From Arenicola marina (lineage: Eukaryota; Annelida; Polychaeta; Arenicolidae): a stretch of 64,000 nucleotides of DNA. The DNA is taken from assembly GCA_964019135.1 (NCBI GenBank), contig OZ025256.1, positions 40,086,035 through 40,150,034 on the forward strand, read 5' to 3'. Position 1 is the first letter of the stretch. Each line of letters opens with the position of its first letter. Under the pieces are notes generated by a model. The model had not been told where the DNA came from. It searched no databases and saw nothing but the letters and a program-made list of their open reading frames with translations. Positions 5,531-64,000 of this stretch are shown one piece after another. The position numbers and the translations under genes were made by a program.

Positions 5531-5730
5531 NNNNNNNNNNNNNNNNNNNNNNNNNNNNNNNNNNNNNNNNNNNNNNNNNNNNNNNNNNNNNNNNNNNNNN
5601 NNNNNNNNNNNNNNNNNNNNNNNNNNNNNNNNNNNNNNNNNNNNNNNNNNNNNNNNNNNNNNNNNNNNNNNNNNNNNNNNNNNNNNNNNNNNNNNNNNNN
5701 NNNNNNNNNNNNNNNNNNNNNNNNNNNNNN
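5531..5730. other. Assembly gap (200 N)
   Basis: Exactly 200 N in a row, a conventional scaffold-gap size, so the true length is unknown. Frames crossing it are meaningless. Confidence 0.99.
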
Positions 5731-7759: not shown

Positions 7760-10700
7760 ACTCCCTCCTACTCTGCCACTCTCTCTCTCTCTGTCATTCC
7801 CTGACGTCATCCTCGACAAATCTACTACCGTTACCTGTCAATCTGTTCCACCGTCACAAGGTCACCGTCACAGTCACGTCTTGTCATCTCCCACTCTGCC
7901 ACTAAGCGTCACTCGTTCACACGCTCTCATTCCCGGCCACTCCCTGCCACTCTCCGTCATTCACCGTCACTCTACGCCATTCTCCGTATCTCTCCGCCAC
8001 ACTCCGTCACACTCCGTCACTCTCCGTCACTCTCCGTCATTCCCTGCCACACTCCATCACTCTCCGTCACTCTCCGCCACACTCCATCACTCTCCGTCAC
8101 TCTCCGTCACACTCCGTCACTCTCCGTCACTCTCCGTCATTCCCTGCCACACTCCGTCACTCTCCGCCTCACTCCGTCACTCTCCGCCTCACTCCGTCAC
8201 TCTCCGCCTCACTCCGTCACTCTCCGCTTCACTCCGTCACTCTCCGCCACACTCCGTCACTCTACGCCATTCTCCGTATCTCTCCGCCACACTCCGTCAC
8301 TCTCCGCCTCACTCCGTCACTCTCCGCCTCACTCCGTCACTCTCTGCCACACTCCGTCACTCTCTGCCTCACTCCGTCACTCTCCGCCTCACTCCGTCAC
8401 TCTCTGCCACACTCCGTCACTCTCCGCCTCACTCCGTCACTCTCCGCCTCACTCCGTCACTCTCCGCCACACTCCGTCACTCTCCGTCACACTCCATCAC
8501 ACTCCGTCACTCTCCGTCATTCCCTGCCACACTCCGTCACTCTCTGCCTCACTCCGTCACTCTCCGTCACACTCCGTCACTCTCCGCCTCACTCCGTCAC
8601 TCTCTGCCACACTCCGTCACTCTCTGCCACACTCCGTCACTCTACGCCATTCTCCGTATCTCTCCGCCACACTCCGTCACACTCCGTCACACTCCGTCAC
8701 TCTCCGTCATTCCCTGCCACACTCCGTCACTCTCCGCCTCACTCCGTCACTCTCCGCCTCACTCCGTCACTCTCTGCCACACTCCGTCACTCTCTGCCTC
8801 ACTCCGTCACTCTCCGCCTCACTCCGTCACTCTCTGCCACACTCCGTCACTCTCTGCCTCACTCCGTCACTCTCCGCCTCACTCCGTCACTCTCTGCCAC
8901 ACTCCGTCACTCTCCGCCTCACTCCGTCACTCTCTGCCACACTCCGTCACTCTACGCCATTCTCCGTATCTCTCCGCCACACTCCGTCACTCTCTGTCAT
9001 TCCCTGCCACACTCCGTCACTCTCCGCCTCACTCCGTCACTCTCCGCCTCACTCCGTCACTCTCTGCCACACTCCGTCACTCTCTGCCTCACTCCGTCAC
9101 ACTCCGCCTCACTCCGTCACTCTCTGCCACACTCCGTCACTCTCCGCCTCACTCCGTCACTCTCCGCCTCACTCCGTCACTCTCTGCCACACTCCGTCAC
9201 TCTCCGCCTCACTCCGTCACTCTCTGTCACACTCCGTCACTCTCTGTGCCACACTCCGCCACACTCCGTCACTCTCCGTCACTCTCCGTCATTCCCTGCC
9301 ACACTCCGTCACTCTCCGTCACTCTCCGTCACTCTCTGCCTCACTCCGTCACTCTCCGCCTCACTCCGTCACTCTCTGCCTCACTCCGTCACTCTCCGCC
9401 TCACTCCGTCACTCTCCGCCTCACTCCGTCACTCTCCGCCTCACTCCGTCACTCTCCGCCTCACTCCGTCACTCTCTGCCTCACTCCGTCACTCTCTGCC
9501 TCACTCCGTCACCCTGCCTCACTCCGTCACTCTCTGCCTTACTCCGTCACTCTGCCTCACTCCGTCACCCTGCCTCACTCCGTCACTCTCTGCCTTACTC
9601 CGTCACTCTGCCTCACTCCGTCACTCTCTGTCTCACTCCGTCACTCTCTGCCCCACTGCGTCACTCTCTGCCTCACTCCGTCATTCTGTGCTTCACTCCG
9701 TCACACTCCGCCACACTCCGTCACACTCTGCCTCACTCCGTCACACCCTGCCTCACTCCGTCACTCTTCGCCACACTCCGTCACTCTCTGCCTCACTCCG
9801 TCACTCTCTGCCTCACTCCGTCACCCTGCCTCACTCCGTCACTCTGCCTCACTCCGTCACTCTCTGCCGCACTGCGTCACTCTGTCACTCTCTGCCTCAC
9901 TCCGGCACTCTCCGCCTCACTCCGTCACTCTCTGCCACACTCCGTCACTCTCTACCTCACTCTGTCACTCTCTGCCTCACTCCGTCACTCTGCATCACGC
10001 CGTCACTCTGCCTCACTCCGTCACTCTCTGCCTCACTCCGTCACTCTCTGCCTCACTGCGTCACTCGCTGTCCCACTCCGTCACTCTCTGCATCACTTGG
10101 TCACTCCCTGCCACACTCCGTCACTCTCTGCCACACTCCGTCACTCTCTGCCTCACTCCGTCACTCTCGGCCACACTCCGTCACTCTCTGCCTCACTCCG
10201 TCACTCTCTGCCTCACTCCGTCACTCTCTACCTCACTCCGTCACTTTCTGCCTCACTCCGTCCCTCTCTACCTCACTCCGGCACTCTCTGCCTCACTCCG
10301 TCACTCTGCCTCACTCCGTCACTCTCTGTTTCACTCCGTCACTCTCTGCCCCACTGCGTCACTCTCTGCCTCACTCCGTCATTCTGTGCTTCACTCCGTC
10401 ACTCTCCGCCACACTCCGTCACTCTCTGCCTCACTCCGTCACACCCTGCCTCACTCCGGCACTCTTCGCCACACTCCGTCACTCTCTGCCTCACTCCGTC
10501 ACTCTCTGCCTCACTCCGTCACCCTGCCTCACTCCGTCACTCTGCCTCACTCCGTCACTCTCTGCCGCACTGCGTCACTCTGTCACTCTCTGCCTCACTC
10601 CGTCACTCTGCCTCACTCCGTCACTCTCTGCCTCACTCCGTCACTCTCTGCCTCACTGCGTCACTCTCTGCCTCACTCCGTCATTCTGTGCTTCACACCG

Positions 10701-11340
10701 TCACTCTCCGCCACACTCCGTCACTCTTCGCCACACTCCGTCACTCTCTGCCTCACTCCGTCACTCTGCCTCACTCCGTCACTCTCTGCCTCAGTCCGTC
10801 ACTCTCTGCCTCACTCCGTCACACCCTGTCTCACTCCGTCACTCTTCGCCACACTCCGTCACTCTCTGCCTCACTCCGTCACTCTGCCTCACTCCGTCAC
10901 TCTCTGCCTCAGTCCGTCACTCGCTGCCGCACTCCGTCACACCCTGCCTCACTCCGTCACTCTTCGCCACACTCCGTCACTCTCTGCCTCACTCCGTCAC
11001 TCTCGGCCACACTCCGTCACTCTCTGCCTCACTCCGTCACTCTCTGCCTCACTCCGTCACTCTCTACCTCACTCCGTCACTTTCTGCCTCACTGCTTCAC
11101 TCGCTGCCTCACTCCATCACACTCTGCCACACTCCGTCACTCTCTGCCTCACTGCTTCACTCGCTGCCTCACTCCATCACACTCTGCCACACTCTGTCAC
11201 TCTCCGCCACACTCCTTCACTATGGGCCACTCGCTGCCACACTCCGTCACTCTCCGCCACTACCTGCCACACTCCTTCACTATGGGCCACTCGCCGCCAC
11301 ACTCCGTCACTCTCCGGTACTACCTGCCACACTGCCGCTT
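7760..11340 (+). repeat. 20-bp minisatellite/satellite array, ~170 copies
   Basis: The unit is 'cactccgtcactctccgcct' with substitutions. The first part is very regular (20-bp steps with 60-bp and larger higher-order patterns). The second part (after about 9500) is mixed with 18-bp variants. Since 20 is not a multiple of three and the unit has no stop in any frame, all three forward frames stay open for very long stretches (over 1,200 codons in one). The frames repeat Ser/Leu/His/Pro peptides and are artefacts. Confidence 0.95.
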
Positions 11341-29079: not shown

Positions 29080-32000
29080 TGGGGATGAGTTCAACATTGG
29101 TTCCATCAGTTTAGTGTGATGATGACTTCATCATTGGCTCCATCAGTTTAGTGTGATGTTGACTTCATCATTGGTTCAATCAGTTTAGTGTGATGATGAC
29201 TTCATCATTGGTTCAATCAGTTTAGTGTGATGATGACTTCATCATTGGCTCCATCAGTTTAGTGTGATGATGACTTCATCATTGGTTCCATCAGTTTAGA
29301 GTGATGATGACTTCATCATTGGTTCAATCAGTTTAGTGTGATGTTGACTTCATCATTGGTTCAATCAGTTTAGTGTGATGATGACTTCATCATTGGCTCC
29401 ATCAGTTTAGTGTGATGATGACTTCATCATCGATTCCATCAGTGTAGTGTGATGATGACTTCATCATTGGTTCCATCAGTTTAGTGTGATGCTGACTTCA
29501 TCATTGGTTCAATCAGTTTAGTGTGATGATGACTTCATCATTGGCTCCATCAGTTTAGTGTGATGATGACTTCATCATCGATTCCATCAGTGTAGTGTGA
29601 TGATGACTTCATCATTGGTTCCATCAGTTTAGTGTGATGCTGACTTCATCATTGGTTCAATCAGTTTAGTGTGATGATGACTTCATCATTGGTTCCATCA
29701 GTTTAGTGTGATGATGACTTCATCATTGGTTCCATCAGTTAAGTGTGATGTTGACTTCATCATTGGCTCCATCAGTTTAGTGTGATGATGACTTCATCAT
29801 TGCTTCCATCAGTTAAGTGTGATGATGACATCATCATTGGTTCAATCAGTTTAGTGTGATGATGACTTCATCATTGGTTCCATCAGTTTTGTGTGATGAT
29901 GACTTCATCATTGGTTCCATCAGTTAAGTGTGATGTTGACTTCATCATTGGCTCCATCAGTTTAGTGTGATGGTGACTTCATCATTGCTTCCATCAGTTT
30001 AGTGTGATGATTACTTCATCATTGGTTCCATCAGTTTAGTGTGATGATGACTTCATCATTTTTTCCATCAGTTAAGTGTGATGATGACTTCATCATTGGT
30101 TCAATCAGTTTAGTGTGATGATGACTTCATCATTGGCTCCATCAGTTTAGTGTGATGATGTCTTCATCATCGATTCCATCAGTTTAGTGTGATGATGACT
30201 TCATCATTGGTTCAATCAGTTTAGTGTGATGATGACTTCATCATTGGCTCCATCAGTTTAGTGTGATGATGACTTCATCATTGGTTCCATCAGTTAAGTG
30301 TGATGTTGACTTCATCATTGGCTCCATCAGTTTATTGTGATGATGACTTCATCATTGGCTCCATCAGTTTAGTGTGATGATGACTTCATCATTGGTTCTA
30401 TCAGTTTAGTGTGATGATGACTTCATCATTGGCTCTATCAGTTTAGTGTGATGATGACTTCATCATTGGTTCCATCAGTTTAGTGTGATGATGACTTCAT
30501 CATTGCTTCTATCAGTTTAGTGTGATGATGACTTCATCATTGGCTCCATCAGTTTAGTGTGATGATGACTTCATCATTGATTCTATCAGTTTAGTGTGAT
30601 GATGACTTCATCATTGGCTCCATCAGTTTAGTGTGATGATGACTTTATCATCGATTCCATCAGTGTAGTGTGATGATGACTTCATCATTGGTTCCATCAG
30701 TTAAGTGTGATGTTGACTTCATCATTGGCTCTATCAGTTTATTGTGATGATGACTTCATCATTGGCTCCACCATTTTAGTGTGATGATGACTTCATCATT
30801 GCTTCCATCAGTTTAGTGTGATGATTACTTCACCATTGGTTCCATCAGTTTAGTGTGATGATGACTTCATCATTTTTTCCATCAGTTAAGTGTGATGATG
30901 ACTTCATCATTGGTTCCATCAGTTTAGTGTCATGATGACTTCATCATTGCTTCCATCAGTTTAGTGTGATGATTACTTCATCATTGGTTCCATCAGTTTA
31001 GTGTGATGATGACTTCATCATTTTTTCCATCAGTTAAGTGTGATGATGACTTCATCATTGGTTCAATCAGTTTAGTGTGATGATGACTTCATCATTGGCT
31101 CCATCAGTTTAGTGTGATGATGTCTTCATCATCGATTCCATCAGTTTAGTGTGATGATGACTTCATCATTGGTTCAATCAGTTTAGTGTGATGATGACTT
31201 CATCATTGGCTCCATCAGTTTAGTGTGATGATGACTTCATCATTGGTTCCATCAGTTAAGTGTGATGTTGACTTCATCATTGGCTCCATCAGTTTATTGT
31301 GATGATGACTTCATCATTGGCTCCATCAGTTTAGTGTGATGATGACTTCATCATTGGTTCTATCAGTTTAGTGTGATGATGACTTCATCATTGGCTCTAT
31401 CAGTTTAGTGTGATGATGACTTCATCATTGGTTCCATCAGTTTAGTGTGATGATGACTTCATCATTGCTTCTATCAGTTTAGTGTGATGATGACTTCATC
31501 ATTGGTTCAATCAGTTTAGTGTGATGATGACTTCATCATTGGCTCCATCAGTTTAGTGTGATGATGACTTCATCATTGATTCTATCAGTTTAGTGTGATG
31601 ATGACTTCATCATTGGCTCCATCAGTTTAGTGTGATGATGACTTTATCATCGATTCCATCAGTGTAGTGTGATGATGACTTCATCATTGGTTCCATCAGT
31701 TAAGTGTGATGTTGACTTCATCATTGGCTCTATCAGTTTATTGTGATGATGACTTCATCATTGGCTCCACCATTTTAGTGTGATGATGACTTCATAATTG
31801 GCTCTATCAGTTTAGTGTGATGATGACTTCATCATTGGTTCCATCAGTTTAGTGTGATGATGACTTCATCATTGCTTCTATCAGTTTAGTGTGATGATGA
31901 CTTCATCATTGGTTCAATCAGTTTAGTGTGATGATGACTTCATCATTGGCTCCATCAGTTTAGTGTGATGATGACTTCATCATTGGTTCTATCAGTTTAG

Positions 32001-33015
32001 TGTGATGATGACTTCATCATTGGCTCCATCAGTTTAGTGTGATGATAACTTTATCATCGATTCCATCAGTGTAGTGTGATGATGACTTCATCATTGGTTC
32101 CATCAGTTAAGTGTGATGTTGACTTCATCATTGGCTCTATCAGTTTATTGTGATGATGACTTCATCATTGGCTCCACCATTTTAGTGTGATGATGACTTC
32201 ATCATTGGCTCTATCAGTTTAGTGTGATGATGACTTCATCATTGGCTCTATCAGTTTAGAGTGATGATGACTGCATCATTGGTTCCATCAGTTTAGTGTG
32301 ATGATGACTTCATCATTGGTTCAATCAGTTAAGTGTGATGTTGACTTCATCATTGGCTCTATCAGTTTATTGTGATGATGACTTCATCATTGGTTCCATC
32401 AGTTTAGAGTGATGATGACTGCATCATTGGTTCCATCAGTTTAGTGTGATGATGACTTCATCATTGGCTCCATCAGTTTAGAGTGATGATGACTGCATCA
32501 TTGGTTCCATCAGTTTAGTGTGATGATGACTGCATCATTGGTTCCATCAGTTTAGAGTGATGATGACTGCATCATTGGTTCCATCAGTTTAGTGTGATGA
32601 TGACTTCATCATTGGTTCAATCAGTTAAGTGTAATGTTGACTTCATCATTGGTTCCATCAGTTTAGAGTGATGATGACTTCATCATTGGTTCCATCAGTT
32701 AAGTGTGATGTTGACTTCATCATTGGTTCCATCAGTTTAGTGTGATGATGACTTCATCATTGGCTCCATCAGTTTAGTGTGATGATGACTTCATCATTGG
32801 CTCCATCAGTTTAGTGTGATGATGACTTCATCATCGATTCCATCAGTTTAGTGTGATGATGACTTCATCATTGGTTCCATCAGTTAAGTGTGATGTTGAC
32901 TTCATCATTGGCTCCATCAGTTTAGTGTGATGATGACTTCATCATTGGTTTGGTTTCATCAGTTTAGTGTGATGATGACTTCATCATTGGCTCCATCAGT
33001 TTAATGTGATGATGC
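29080..33015 (+). repeat. 37-bp minisatellite, ~106 copies, with higher-order repeats
   Basis: The unit is about 37 bp, 'gtgatgatgacttcatcatt' followed by 'ggttccatcagttta'. Each unit has a dyad GATGATGA-CT-TCATCATC. Variants (gttaag, cgattcc, gctcta) recur in the same order about 962 bp (26 units) apart, for example 30061 onward against 31023 onward, showing block duplication. Almost no frame stays open. The array ends abruptly at 33015. Confidence 0.95.
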
Positions 33016-33715
33016 TTCCGTTATATTTGTTTGGTAAGCTCGCGGCGGGATGTGGTTCAACAGTGGATAAGCCTCGGGTCACATGGCATGGTTGAACACA
33101 CATCTTTTTGTATTTTTGCCAAAACGTGTCATCTCGATTTAGAATTCGTAACATAATTGCAGCTAGTCTCACCTTCATAAACTAATATAGTCCGTGCAGC
33201 AGTTGATCATCATAAAGATCCTAAAGACAAGCTATAACCGGTCCATGCACGAAATTTCGCGAAAACAAATCTGGACCGGATGAATGTTTTGACCGGATGC
33301 GGTAACATTTTCAGGAGGTTCGATCGTCTAACGAAGTGAGCAAATATCAGGTTCATACAGCGATCCATAACGAGGCTCCAATGTTGATATTGGTGTAGTA
33401 TGAAGACCAGGGGCCGATCACCGTCAGGCTTCCATGCTTGGATAGAATACATTATTAATAATGCTGGTTTCCGCTGGGAAAGCCACAGGCTGGGAACGTG
33501 GTCTTATACGTCTGCTGGATTTGAAGAGGCCGTGTCGACGTGCATGTATCGTCAATCGCAGGAATCCAGAGTAGAGTCGAGCCATATGTCTTGGGGATTC
33601 CAGGGGGATTTGTATCTATGTTCCGCAGGGTCACACACCGAAATCAGTCGTTCGACAATAGTGAATATACCAGCAGACCTGTCTAAGGAACGACACTTTA
33701 TGTAACGGCTCGTGA

Positions 33716-51049: not shown

Positions 51050-51135
51050 GAGTTTTGTGACTCACTTTTAGTGACTCACTTTTAGTGACTCACTTTTAGT
51101 GACTCACTTTTAGTGACTCAATTTTAGTGACTCAC
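51050..51135 (+). repeat. 15-bp tandem repeat, ~5.5 copies
   Basis: Unit 'tagtgactcactttt', nearly perfect. TGACTCA inside each unit equals the AP-1 consensus, but this follows from the unit sequence and has no visible gene context. Confidence 0.9.
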
Positions 51136-60993: not shown

Positions 60994-61163
60994 TTACGCC
61001 CAGTACTCCTTGGTGGGTGCGCGGTGGTACCCCCGCGACGGTGACGTCATCTTGGGTTCCTCCAGGGCGTAGCTGCCCTCGTCCTTCTTCCGCATCCGGT
61101 ACACGGTGAACATGACCAGGAGCACGGCGCACAGCAGGCCGACCACGGCGCCCCCTATGATCG
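60994..61163 (-). CDS. SDC: Syndecan, last coding exon (transmembrane and cytoplasmic)
   Basis: Acceptor 'gtctctccgcag', phase 1 in, stop TAA. It encodes 56 residues: the membrane segment AIIGGAVVGLLCAVLLVMFT with the GGAVVG dimerisation motif; the conserved C1 region RMRKKDEGSYALEEPK, the basic/Tyr motif that binds cytoskeletal linkers; a variable MTSPSRGYH; and the C2 tail RAPTKEYWA. Syndecans almost always end EFYA, a PDZ ligand. Here both aromatics differ (EYWA), although their aromatic character at -2 and -1 is kept. Confidence 0.97.
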
Positions 61164-62739
61164 CTGCGGAGAGACAGAGACAGTGACGTCAGGACCGGAT
61201 ATAGCCAACACATCGGCAGCGCTTACACACATTTTTGCATACACGTACTTGCCGCAGGATTAACTTTAAGCTCAGTAAAACGTATAAGAAACTAGGTACA
61301 AACAAACAACTACAACGTAACTTAATCACTGTCAAATTCTAGGCTGGGTTTCCCATCACTTACCAGCCAACCAGCCTGGGTTTCCCATCACTTACCAGCC
61401 AACCAGTCTGGGTTTCCCATCACATACCAGCCAACCAGTCTGGGTTTCCCATCACTTACCAGCCAACCAGCCCGGGTTTCCTATCACTTACCAGCCAACC
61501 AGCCTGGGTTTCCCATCACTTACCAGCCAACCAGCCTGGGTTTACCATCACTTACCAGCCAACCAGCCTGGGTTTCCCATCACTTACCAGCCAACCAGCC
61601 TGGGTTTCCCATCACTTACCAGCCAACCAGCCTGGGTTTCCCATCACTTACCAGCCAACCAGCCCGGGTTTCCACTCACTTACCAGCCAACCAGCCTGGG
61701 TTTCCCATCACTTACCAGCCAACCAGCCTGGGTTTCCCATCACTTACCAGCCAACCAGCCTGGGTTTCCCATCACTTACCAGCCAACCAGCCCGGGTTTC
61801 CCATCACTAACCCGCCAACCAGCCTGGGTTTCCCATCACTTACCAGCCAACCAGCCTGGGTTTCCCATCACTTACCAGCCAACCAGCCTGGGTTTCCCAT
61901 CACTTACCAGCCAACCAGCCTGGGTTTCCCATCACTTATCAGCCAACCAGCCTGGGTTTCCCATCACTTACCAGCCAACCAGCCTGGGTTTCCCATCACT
62001 TACCAGCCAACCAGCCTGGGTTTCCCATCACTTACCAGCCAACCAGCCCGGGTTTCCCATCACTTACCAGCCAACCAGCCTGGGTTTCCCATCACTTACC
62101 AGCCAACCAGCCTGGGTTTCCCATCCCTTACCAGCCAACCAGCCTGGGTTTCCCATCACTTACCAGCCAACCAGCCTGGGTTTCCCATCACTTACCAGCC
62201 AACCAGCCTGGGTTTCCCATCACTTACCCGCCAACCAGCCTGGGTTTCCCATCACTTACCAGCCAACCAGCCTGGGTTTCCCATCACTTACCAGCCAACC
62301 AGCCTGGGTTTCCCATCACTTACCAGCCAACCAGCCTGGGTTTCCCATCACTTACCAGCCAACCAGCCTGGGTTTCCCATCACTTACCAGCCAACCAGTC
62401 TGGGTTTCCCATCACTTACCAGCCAACCAGTCTGGGTTTCCCATCACTTTCCAGCCAACCAGCCTGAGTTTCCCATCACTTACCAGCCAACCAGTCTGGG
62501 TTTCCCATCACTTACCAGCCAACCAGCCCGGGTTTCCAATCACTTACCAGCCAACCAGCCCGGGTTTCCCATCACTTACCAGCCAACCAGCCTGGGTTTC
62601 CCATCACTTACCAGCCAACCAGTCTGGGTTTCCCATCACTTACCAGCCAACCAGCCCGGGTTTCCCATCACTTACCAGCCAACCAGCCTGGGTTTCCCAT
62701 CACTTACCAGCCAACCAGCCTGGGTTTCCCATCACTTAC
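61164..62739 (-). other. Intron before the last syndecan exon
   Basis: About 1.58 kb, of which all but the 180 bp next to the last exon is the 32-bp array. Intron retention would add Gly-Lys and then a TGA in frame, just before the membrane segment. Confidence 0.85.
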
Positions 62740-62741
62740 CA
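61342..62741 (-). repeat. 32-bp minisatellite carrying a 5' splice site, ~44 copies
   Basis: Minus-strand unit 'ggctggtaagtgatgggaaa' + 'cccaggctggtt'. The exon-proximal copy is the end of the upstream exon (coding NPGWLA) plus its real donor CTG|GTAAGT. Nearly all copies keep this donor; a few variants are seen at about 61422, 61806, 61938, 62130 and 62448. 32 is not a multiple of three, and the unit brings a stop, so it cannot encode protein repeats. The array is extremely homogeneous, hence young. Confidence 0.97.
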
Positions 62742-62859
62742 GCCAACCAGCCCGGGTTTCCAATGATAAACGACTCAGAGCTGTCGTTCTTCTTCTCGGA
62801 CTGGACGTCATCCACGTCTTCGTTATCCCGGTCCATGTTCGTGAACTCCACTGTGTTGT
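62740..62859 (-). CDS. SDC: Syndecan, penultimate visible exon (juxtamembrane ectodomain)
   Basis: A 120-bp exon, acceptor 'ttactccttgcag', donor GGCTG|GTAAGT, phase 1 at both ends. It encodes NTVEFTNMDRDNEDVDDVQS, EKKNDSSESFIIGNPGWLA. The end matches the 'SFFAQPG.LAA' membrane-proximal segment of invertebrate syndecans and splices in frame to the membrane exon. It is strongly acidic and has no Ser-Gly attachment site in this exon. NDSS is a possible N-glycosylation sequon. Confidence 0.93.
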
Positions 62860-64000
62860 CTGCAAGGAGTAACAGTGGTTACATAAGCCAGGGCAAGGAG
62901 TAACATTGGTTACATAAGCCAGGGCATGGAGTAACAGTGGTTACATAAGCCAAGGCAAGGAGTAACATTGGTTACATAAGCCAGGGCAAGGAGTAACAGC
63001 GGTTACATAAGCCAGGGCAAGGAGTAACAGTGGTTACATAAGCCAGGGCAAGGAGTAACAGTGGTTACATAAGCCAGGGCAAGGAGTAACAGCGGCTACA
63101 TAAGCCAGGGCGTGGAGTAACAGCGGTTACATAAGCCAGGGCATGGAGTAACAGCGGTTACATAAGCCAGGGCAAGGAGTAACAGCGGTTACATAAGCCA
63201 GGGCAAGGAGTAACAGCGGTTACATAAGCCAGGGCAAGGAGTAACAGCGGTTACATAAGCCAGGGCAAGGAGTAACAGCGGCTACATAAGCCAGGGCAAG
63301 GAGTAACAGCGGTTACATAAGCCAGGGCAAGGAGTAACAGTGGTTACATAAGCCAGGGCAAGGAGTAACATTGGTTACATAAGCCAGGGCAAGGAGTAAC
63401 AGTGGTTACATAAGCCAGGGCATGGAGTAACAGTGGTTACATAAGCCAGGGCAAGGAGTAACATTGGTTACATAAGCCAGGGCATGGAGTAACAGTGGTT
63501 ACATAAGCCAAGGCAAGGAGTAACATTGGTTACATAAGCCAGGGCAAGGAGTAACAGCGGTTACATAAGCCAGGGCAAGGAGTAACAGTGGTTACATAAG
63601 CCAGGGCAAGGAGTAACAGTGGTTACATAAGCCAGGGCAAGGAGTAACAGCGGCTACATAAGCCAGGGCGTGGAGTAACAGCGGTTACATAAGCCAGGGC
63701 ATGGAGTAACAGCGGTTACATAAGCCAGGGCAAGGAGTAACAGCGGTTACATAAGCCAGGGCAAGGAGTAACAGCGGTTACATAAGCCAGGGCAAGGAGT
63801 AACAGCGGTTACATAAGCCAGGGCAAGGAGTAACAGCGGCTACATAAGCCAGGGCAAGGAGTAACAGCGGTTACATAAGCCAGGGCAAGGAGTAACAGTG
63901 GTTACATAAGCCAGGGCAAGGAGTAACATTGGTTACATAAGCCAGGGCAAGGAGTAACAGCGGTTACATAAGCCAGGGCAAGGAGTAACAGCAGTTACAT
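62860..64000 (-). repeat. 31-bp minisatellite adjoining the 3' splice site, ~37 copies in window
   Basis: Plus-strand unit 'caaggagtaacagcggttac' + 'ataagccaggg'. The copy nearest the exon is the real acceptor region (minus strand 'gttactccttgcag'). In array copies the AG is changed ('ccttgccc'). A block of 18 units (558 bp) is duplicated: the rare order at 62895-62960 recurs at 63453-63518. The array runs off the window. Confidence 0.97.

Follow-up and report, generated by a model that had tools for sequence, protein, structure and literature searches.

Minisatellites whose repeat unit includes an exon-intron boundary, known as mirages, have been described in the amphioxus globin genes BflGb6 and BflGb9, with Adh3 cited as a further case (PMC3087553), and PGBD5 has been added and TnC cited as mirage genes in the same animals (PMC3902484). 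Duplication can affect a 5' as well as a 3' boundary, the globin and Adh3 data are taken to suggest that regular splicing is undisturbed, and mirage clusters show length instability, with the suggestion that the phenomenon may be general in cephalochordates (PMC3087553). Adh3 units measure 10-72 bp, and those of the globins about 150-160 bp (PMC3087553, PMC3902484). Three other systems share single features with these arrays. The Rogers model of intron gain by AG/GT tandem duplication (cited in PMC3087553) also invokes duplications that span splice signals; introns of earthworm metallothionein genes carry large minisatellite arrays in an annelid, although no units spanning a splice site are described in the text available (PMC12783039); and in human internal tandem repeats within segmental duplications, minisatellite variation at a boundary alters gene structure, but with about four units of 30 bp on average and in a discussion of routes to new introns (PMC2812944).

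Here we describe a structure of the mirage type in an intron of a syndecan gene of the annelid Arenicola marina, located in a stretch of 64,000 nucleotides (hereafter, the window). As in amphioxus, the tandem units include the exon-intron boundary together with its splice signal, and both donor-side and acceptor-side cases occur. Unlike the amphioxus examples, the array belongs to an annelid and comprises 44 copies, the majority of which carry one and the same strong donor; in the annelid exons sampled below, such arrays occur at about one donor in ten; and whereas regular splicing is reported for Adh3 and the globins, in the annelid it is presumed from the sequence. It also differs from the Rogers model, in that the syndecan case has the look of an ordinary intron made longer, with no new intron shown. 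The resemblance had been anticipated in the preliminary description, which pointed to mirages at the amphioxus Adh locus; Adh3 is indeed cited as such in PMC3087553, and the syndecan structure matches the type. No report of a junction-spanning minisatellite in an annelid was recognised in searches of open-access literature, which is weak evidence of absence. As far as these searches show, the kind of structure is a described one and the phylum apparently new, so that junction-spanning minisatellites known from amphioxus are extended to a protostome.

The coordinates of the features discussed are collected in the table below. Joining the 120-nt exon to the last coding exon yields the product NTVEF...FIIGNPGWLA/AIIGGAVVGLL...KEYWA followed by a stop (the slash marks the junction), which matches the transmembrane and cytoplasmic domain family Syndecan of Pfam (PF01034) with E=5e-27 and 94.1 bits against a cut-off of 25.2. 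Residues 33-93 align to profile positions 4-64, the alignment passing over the junction without a net gap. The repeat unit has its exonic part (GNPGWLA) within this match, which identifies the syndecan exon as the source of the repeat. The protein ends in EYWA, and the usual syndecan C-terminus is EFYA. A crude search found no upstream syndecan exons, and the 5' part of the gene, where a signal peptide and an ectodomain with glycosaminoglycan sites would be expected, was not located.

Table. Features of the syndecan locus and of a second donor-spanning array nearby. Positions are those of the window unless stated; window-extended coordinates continue the same numbering beyond its end.
Feature	Position	Strand	Remarks
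Last coding exon of syndecan, transmembrane and cytoplasmic part	60994..61163	minus	ends KEYWA, stop TAA
Intron with array	61164..62739	minus	1576 nt long; array accounts for 1396 nt
3' splice site GTCTCTCCGCAG of the array-bearing intron	61164..61175	minus	
32-bp minisatellite, 44 whole units	61344..62765	minus	TRF and phasing from the exon
Putative authentic 5' splice site GTAAGT, exon-proximal copy	62734..62739	minus	assigned from protein continuity
Syndecan exon preceding the transmembrane exon, 120 nt	62740..62859	minus	phase 1 at both ends; last 26 nt form the first repeat copy
Acceptor AG of the 120-nt exon, adjoining the 31-bp array	62860..62861	minus	
31-bp minisatellite, about 49.5 copies	62862..64000, on to 64389 (window-extended)	minus	
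P5CR donor-spanning array (L027)	129564-130147 (window-extended); C9 about 40215598-40216181		

Tandem Repeats Finder (TRF) reports the array as 61344-62761 with a period of 32, 44.3 copies, 96% matches and 0% indels. When the minus strand is read in phase with the exon, each unit consists of 26 nt of coding exon end followed by GTAAGT and thus spans the exon-intron boundary, as mirage units do; counted from 62765 downward there are 44 whole copies, 43 of which are intronic. With the true donor included, GT is kept in 42/44 units, GTAAGT in 39/44, and CTG/GTAAGT is identical in 38 of the 44; among the 43 intronic decoys the first two figures are 41 and 38. The units fall into 14 distinct types, which are interspersed along the array. 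Also in keeping with a mirage, three positions distinguish the exon copy from the decoy consensus and one distinguishes it from its closest decoy, indicating that the boundary copy has been excluded from homogenisation, and the Pfam match without net gap suggests that the authentic boundary is the exon-proximal copy. A 64-nt query of two units gave 22 matches in the 867-Mb assembly, whose contig C9 contains the window (very common words being skipped), every one inside the syndecan array. Splicing at the first decoy would bring a TGA into the reading frame, and use of any further decoy also brings this stop, because every longer form contains the first decoy unit (six of the 44 forms were written out).

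Much of the preliminary description is sustained by this anatomy: the gene as syndecan, the putative donor between 62740 and 62739 on the minus strand, the in-frame TGA added by other donors, and the derivation of the array from the exon/intron junction, for which a coding copy lies at one edge and the exonic part lies inside the Syndecan match. Two points needed adjustment. Its count of about 44 strong donors holds for phased units, but identical donor 9-mers number 38, and the unit, said to begin in the last bases of the exon, does have an exonic part, but one that reaches 26 nt into the exon, with its edge at about 62761-62765.

At the acceptor of the same 120-nt exon lies a second minisatellite, with a 31-bp unit. 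Its last unit provides the bases just upstream of the acceptor AG, and the units are not copies of the acceptor, since they lack AG at that place. Block (higher-order) duplications of units were apparent on reading this array by eye.

Junction-spanning arrays also recur in other genes. About 67 kb from the syndecan array, a P5CR gene possesses a donor-spanning array with a unit of 96-104 bp and five intronic copies, the unit being the exon end LDAVTGLSGSGPAY plus GTGAGT, and the last intronic copy carrying a small insertion before the donor. A P5CR_dimer match extends over the array junction without net gap (residues 55-101 to profile positions 1-47), and the repeated part of the exon falls within it. 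Because the first decoy lies 96 nt on, in an open frame, a P5CR isoform longer by 32 residues is conceivable.

A wider sample comprised 78 exons of this genome from family searches, namely 30 myosin-head exons (the best 30 of 77 matches) and 48 kinesin exons (48 of 133 matches in table order, with five rows on the small contigs C390, C504 and C536 left out); several of the 78 come from the same genes. A donor was scored when 15 nt of exon and 6 nt of intron recurred downstream with GT, at 18 of 21 positions, and acceptors were subjected to the mirror test. This automatic test was positive for 10/78 donors and 2/78 acceptors, and a control with reversed flanks, in which GT or AG was not required, gave 0/78 for each. 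On reading, two donor loci (L056 and L080) were rejected, the array being intronic in both, leaving donor-spanning arrays at 8/78 exons (L039, L046, L059, L060, L067, L073, L092 and L109) and acceptor-spanning arrays at 2/78 (L082, with two decayed copies, and L092, a kinesin exon flanked by a spanning array at each end). Among the kinesin and myosin loci the repeated part falls in family-matched exon ends. The exonic stretch repeated is only about 8 nt in L109 and about 12 nt in L046. The array of L039, with the unit KGDPIGGHINNYLLEK followed by GTAGGC, has at least 24 copies and reaches the end of the sequence analysed. At six further loci (L034, L053, L064, L074, L083 and L106) arrays abut or lie near a splice site without crossing it. 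For the donor rate of 8/78 the exact 95% interval runs from 4.5 to 19%, the true interval being wider because exons of one gene are not independent, and the asymmetry between donors and acceptors (8 v 2, two-sided p=0.11) is only suggestive. Array starts relative to exon ends are not interpretable here, since 48 of the 78 loci had only 300 nt of flank.

Given a row of near-identical decoys, the splicing machinery must choose the right signal, and the variation among decoys bears on whether they are kept by selection. Pooled over ten arrays, decoys deviate from their consensus at 27/1053 donor positions (-3 to +6) and at 39/1328 exon-derived positions (p=0.62), a count that includes two G-run artefacts among six L067 copies and misses strongly decayed copies, decoys having been detected by similarity of 76% or more. 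In the syndecan array alone, donor positions deviate in 7/387 cases against 6/903 for the others with two polymorphic columns excluded (p=0.07), and 7/387 against 19/989 with these included (p=1.0). Over eight arrays the decoys show 12 synonymous and 25 nonsynonymous distinct codon changes, which is about what unselected copies would give, judged without a formal neutral expectation.

These data weigh on two readings in which the decoys are useful. Under one, raised in the preliminary description as a U1 sink, the array is a selected platform whose decoys bind U1 snRNP and block premature cleavage and polyadenylation or enhance transcription. The retention of GT in 114/117 copies over the ten arrays (the 117 including the two L067 artefacts) and of GTAAGT in most syndecan decoys would accord with this, as would the fact that decoys without changes are identical to the true site in sequence and hence in U1 duplex energy. 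However, donor positions show no stronger conservation than other positions of the unit, GTRAGT is absent from the unit of the 31-bp array at this exon's acceptor, and donors are not enriched in tandem arrays at large, GTRAGT occurring in only 4 units of the 54 arrays in 141 kb, where 3.0 are expected and 100/300 shuffles reach 4. (The other two donor-bearing arrays, at 51053 and, in extended coordinates, at 114874, look non-coding.) Nothing here supports a selected U1 sink, a weak or recent one being conceivable, and we regard the selected platform as very unlikely; the neutral option offered in the same description fares better, the decoys varying like unselected copies. The other reading, in which decoys are used at a real rate, stop-containing RNAs tune syndecan through nonsense-mediated decay (NMD) and array length acts as a dial, draws on the in-frame TGA and on the first decoy offset, which is not a multiple of three in 9/10 arrays. 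Yet chance would already give two thirds, which is close to this proportion, and here too decoy donors show no better conservation than other positions, so that such a switch seems unlikely, if less so than the U1 platform.

Two further explanations concern the origin of the array. That it is an assembly artefact is highly improbable: one copy of the syndecan locus was found in the assembly and no second haplotype for comparison of length, but the 14 interspersed unit types, and the presence in other genes of independent arrays built from different units, speak for a real structure. An extension of the exon into an older, pre-existing intronic minisatellite, already disfavoured, would account for the shared sequence and nothing more, while the position of the repeated parts inside the Syndecan and P5CR_dimer matches and in family-matched kinesin and myosin exon ends, together with nonsynonymous changes in the decoys, makes it the least credible of the alternatives.

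We consider it probable, from the sequence evidence, that the syndecan array is a near-neutral, junction-spanning minisatellite spliced out with its intron through the exon-proximal donor. A 32-bp segment across the exon/donor boundary would have undergone tandem duplication, with repeat turnover later multiplying the copies, the authentic donor staying at the exon edge with further copies downstream; because the true donor would lie at that edge and all other copies beyond it, the array would be removed with the intron. The donor used in vivo is assigned from protein-family continuity. Donor sequence cannot single out the true site when most copies are identical. Local RNA structure hiding the decoys was rejected as a cause, as the true donor gains no advantage in predicted accessibility: among the 44 sites it ranks 44, 23 or 5, depending on which of three window sizes is used. 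With sequence and predicted structure uninformative, what remains is position: the true donor would be the first transcribed and the nearest to the acceptor. The most likely cause is exon definition with co-transcriptional commitment and NMD as clean-up, such that the spliceosome would commit to the exon-proximal donor, transcribed first and paired with the acceptor of its exon, products from decoys would carry the stop and be lost to NMD, and the decoys, nearly invisible to selection, would drift. Against this near-neutral account stands the observation that among duplicated donors the intron-proximal copy is often favoured, which would predict use of decoys, and no local feature accounts for the opposite choice.

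More tentatively, the duplication of exon/donor segments may be genome-wide and ongoing, affecting about one in ten donors, with thousands of introns starting with such near-identical donors in a row, donor choice being decided not by sequence but by position (exon-adjacent and transcribed first), and donor-side arrays better tolerated than acceptor-side ones. Such a rate would surprise a specialist if it held up, and the genome would provide a natural experiment on position versus sequence in donor choice. Dozens of near-identical donors with one correct choice make a test of 5' splice-site selection which would be hard to build deliberately, and here it occurs in several unrelated genes. Junction-spanning arrays would also supply current material from which introns can lengthen and, perhaps, new ones arise.

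Tandem arrays with a period of at least 12 and at least 2.5 copies occupy 31,768 of the 141,000 bases formed by the window and 77 kb beyond it. They include an array at 7948-11316 with 10/40/60-bp periodicity, in which all three plus-strand frames are open for over 1100 codons, and a 37-bp array of 106 copies at 29084-33018; a run of 200 N, representing a gap or sequence withheld, lies at 5531-5730. The mitochondrial contig (15,942 bp) has 12 protein genes recognised from translations, on one strand and open under code 5, in the order cox1-N-cox2-D-(atp8)-Y-G-cox3-Q-nad6-cob-W-atp6-R-H-nad5-F-E-P-T-nad4L-nad4-C-M-(rRNA)-V-(rRNA)-L-A-S-L-nad1-I-K-nad3-S-nad2, with atp8 and the rRNAs placed by gaps and three ARAGORN tRNA calls (383, 3346c and 13224c) excluded as lying inside other genes or on the opposite strand. 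This is the order of Lumbricus and many other annelids, and a cephalochordate genome was rejected, the arrangement not being that known from cephalochordates. Kinesin matches on C390, C504 and C536 are interrupted only by TAG/TAA, and these are perhaps contaminant contigs from an organism reading TAG/TAA as sense, such as a ciliate. Finally, C4:380231-383133 and C4:367768-371306 each hold four neighbouring matches covering almost one and the same stretch of the myosin head (about 110-154 and 590-640), which are perhaps mutually exclusive exons.
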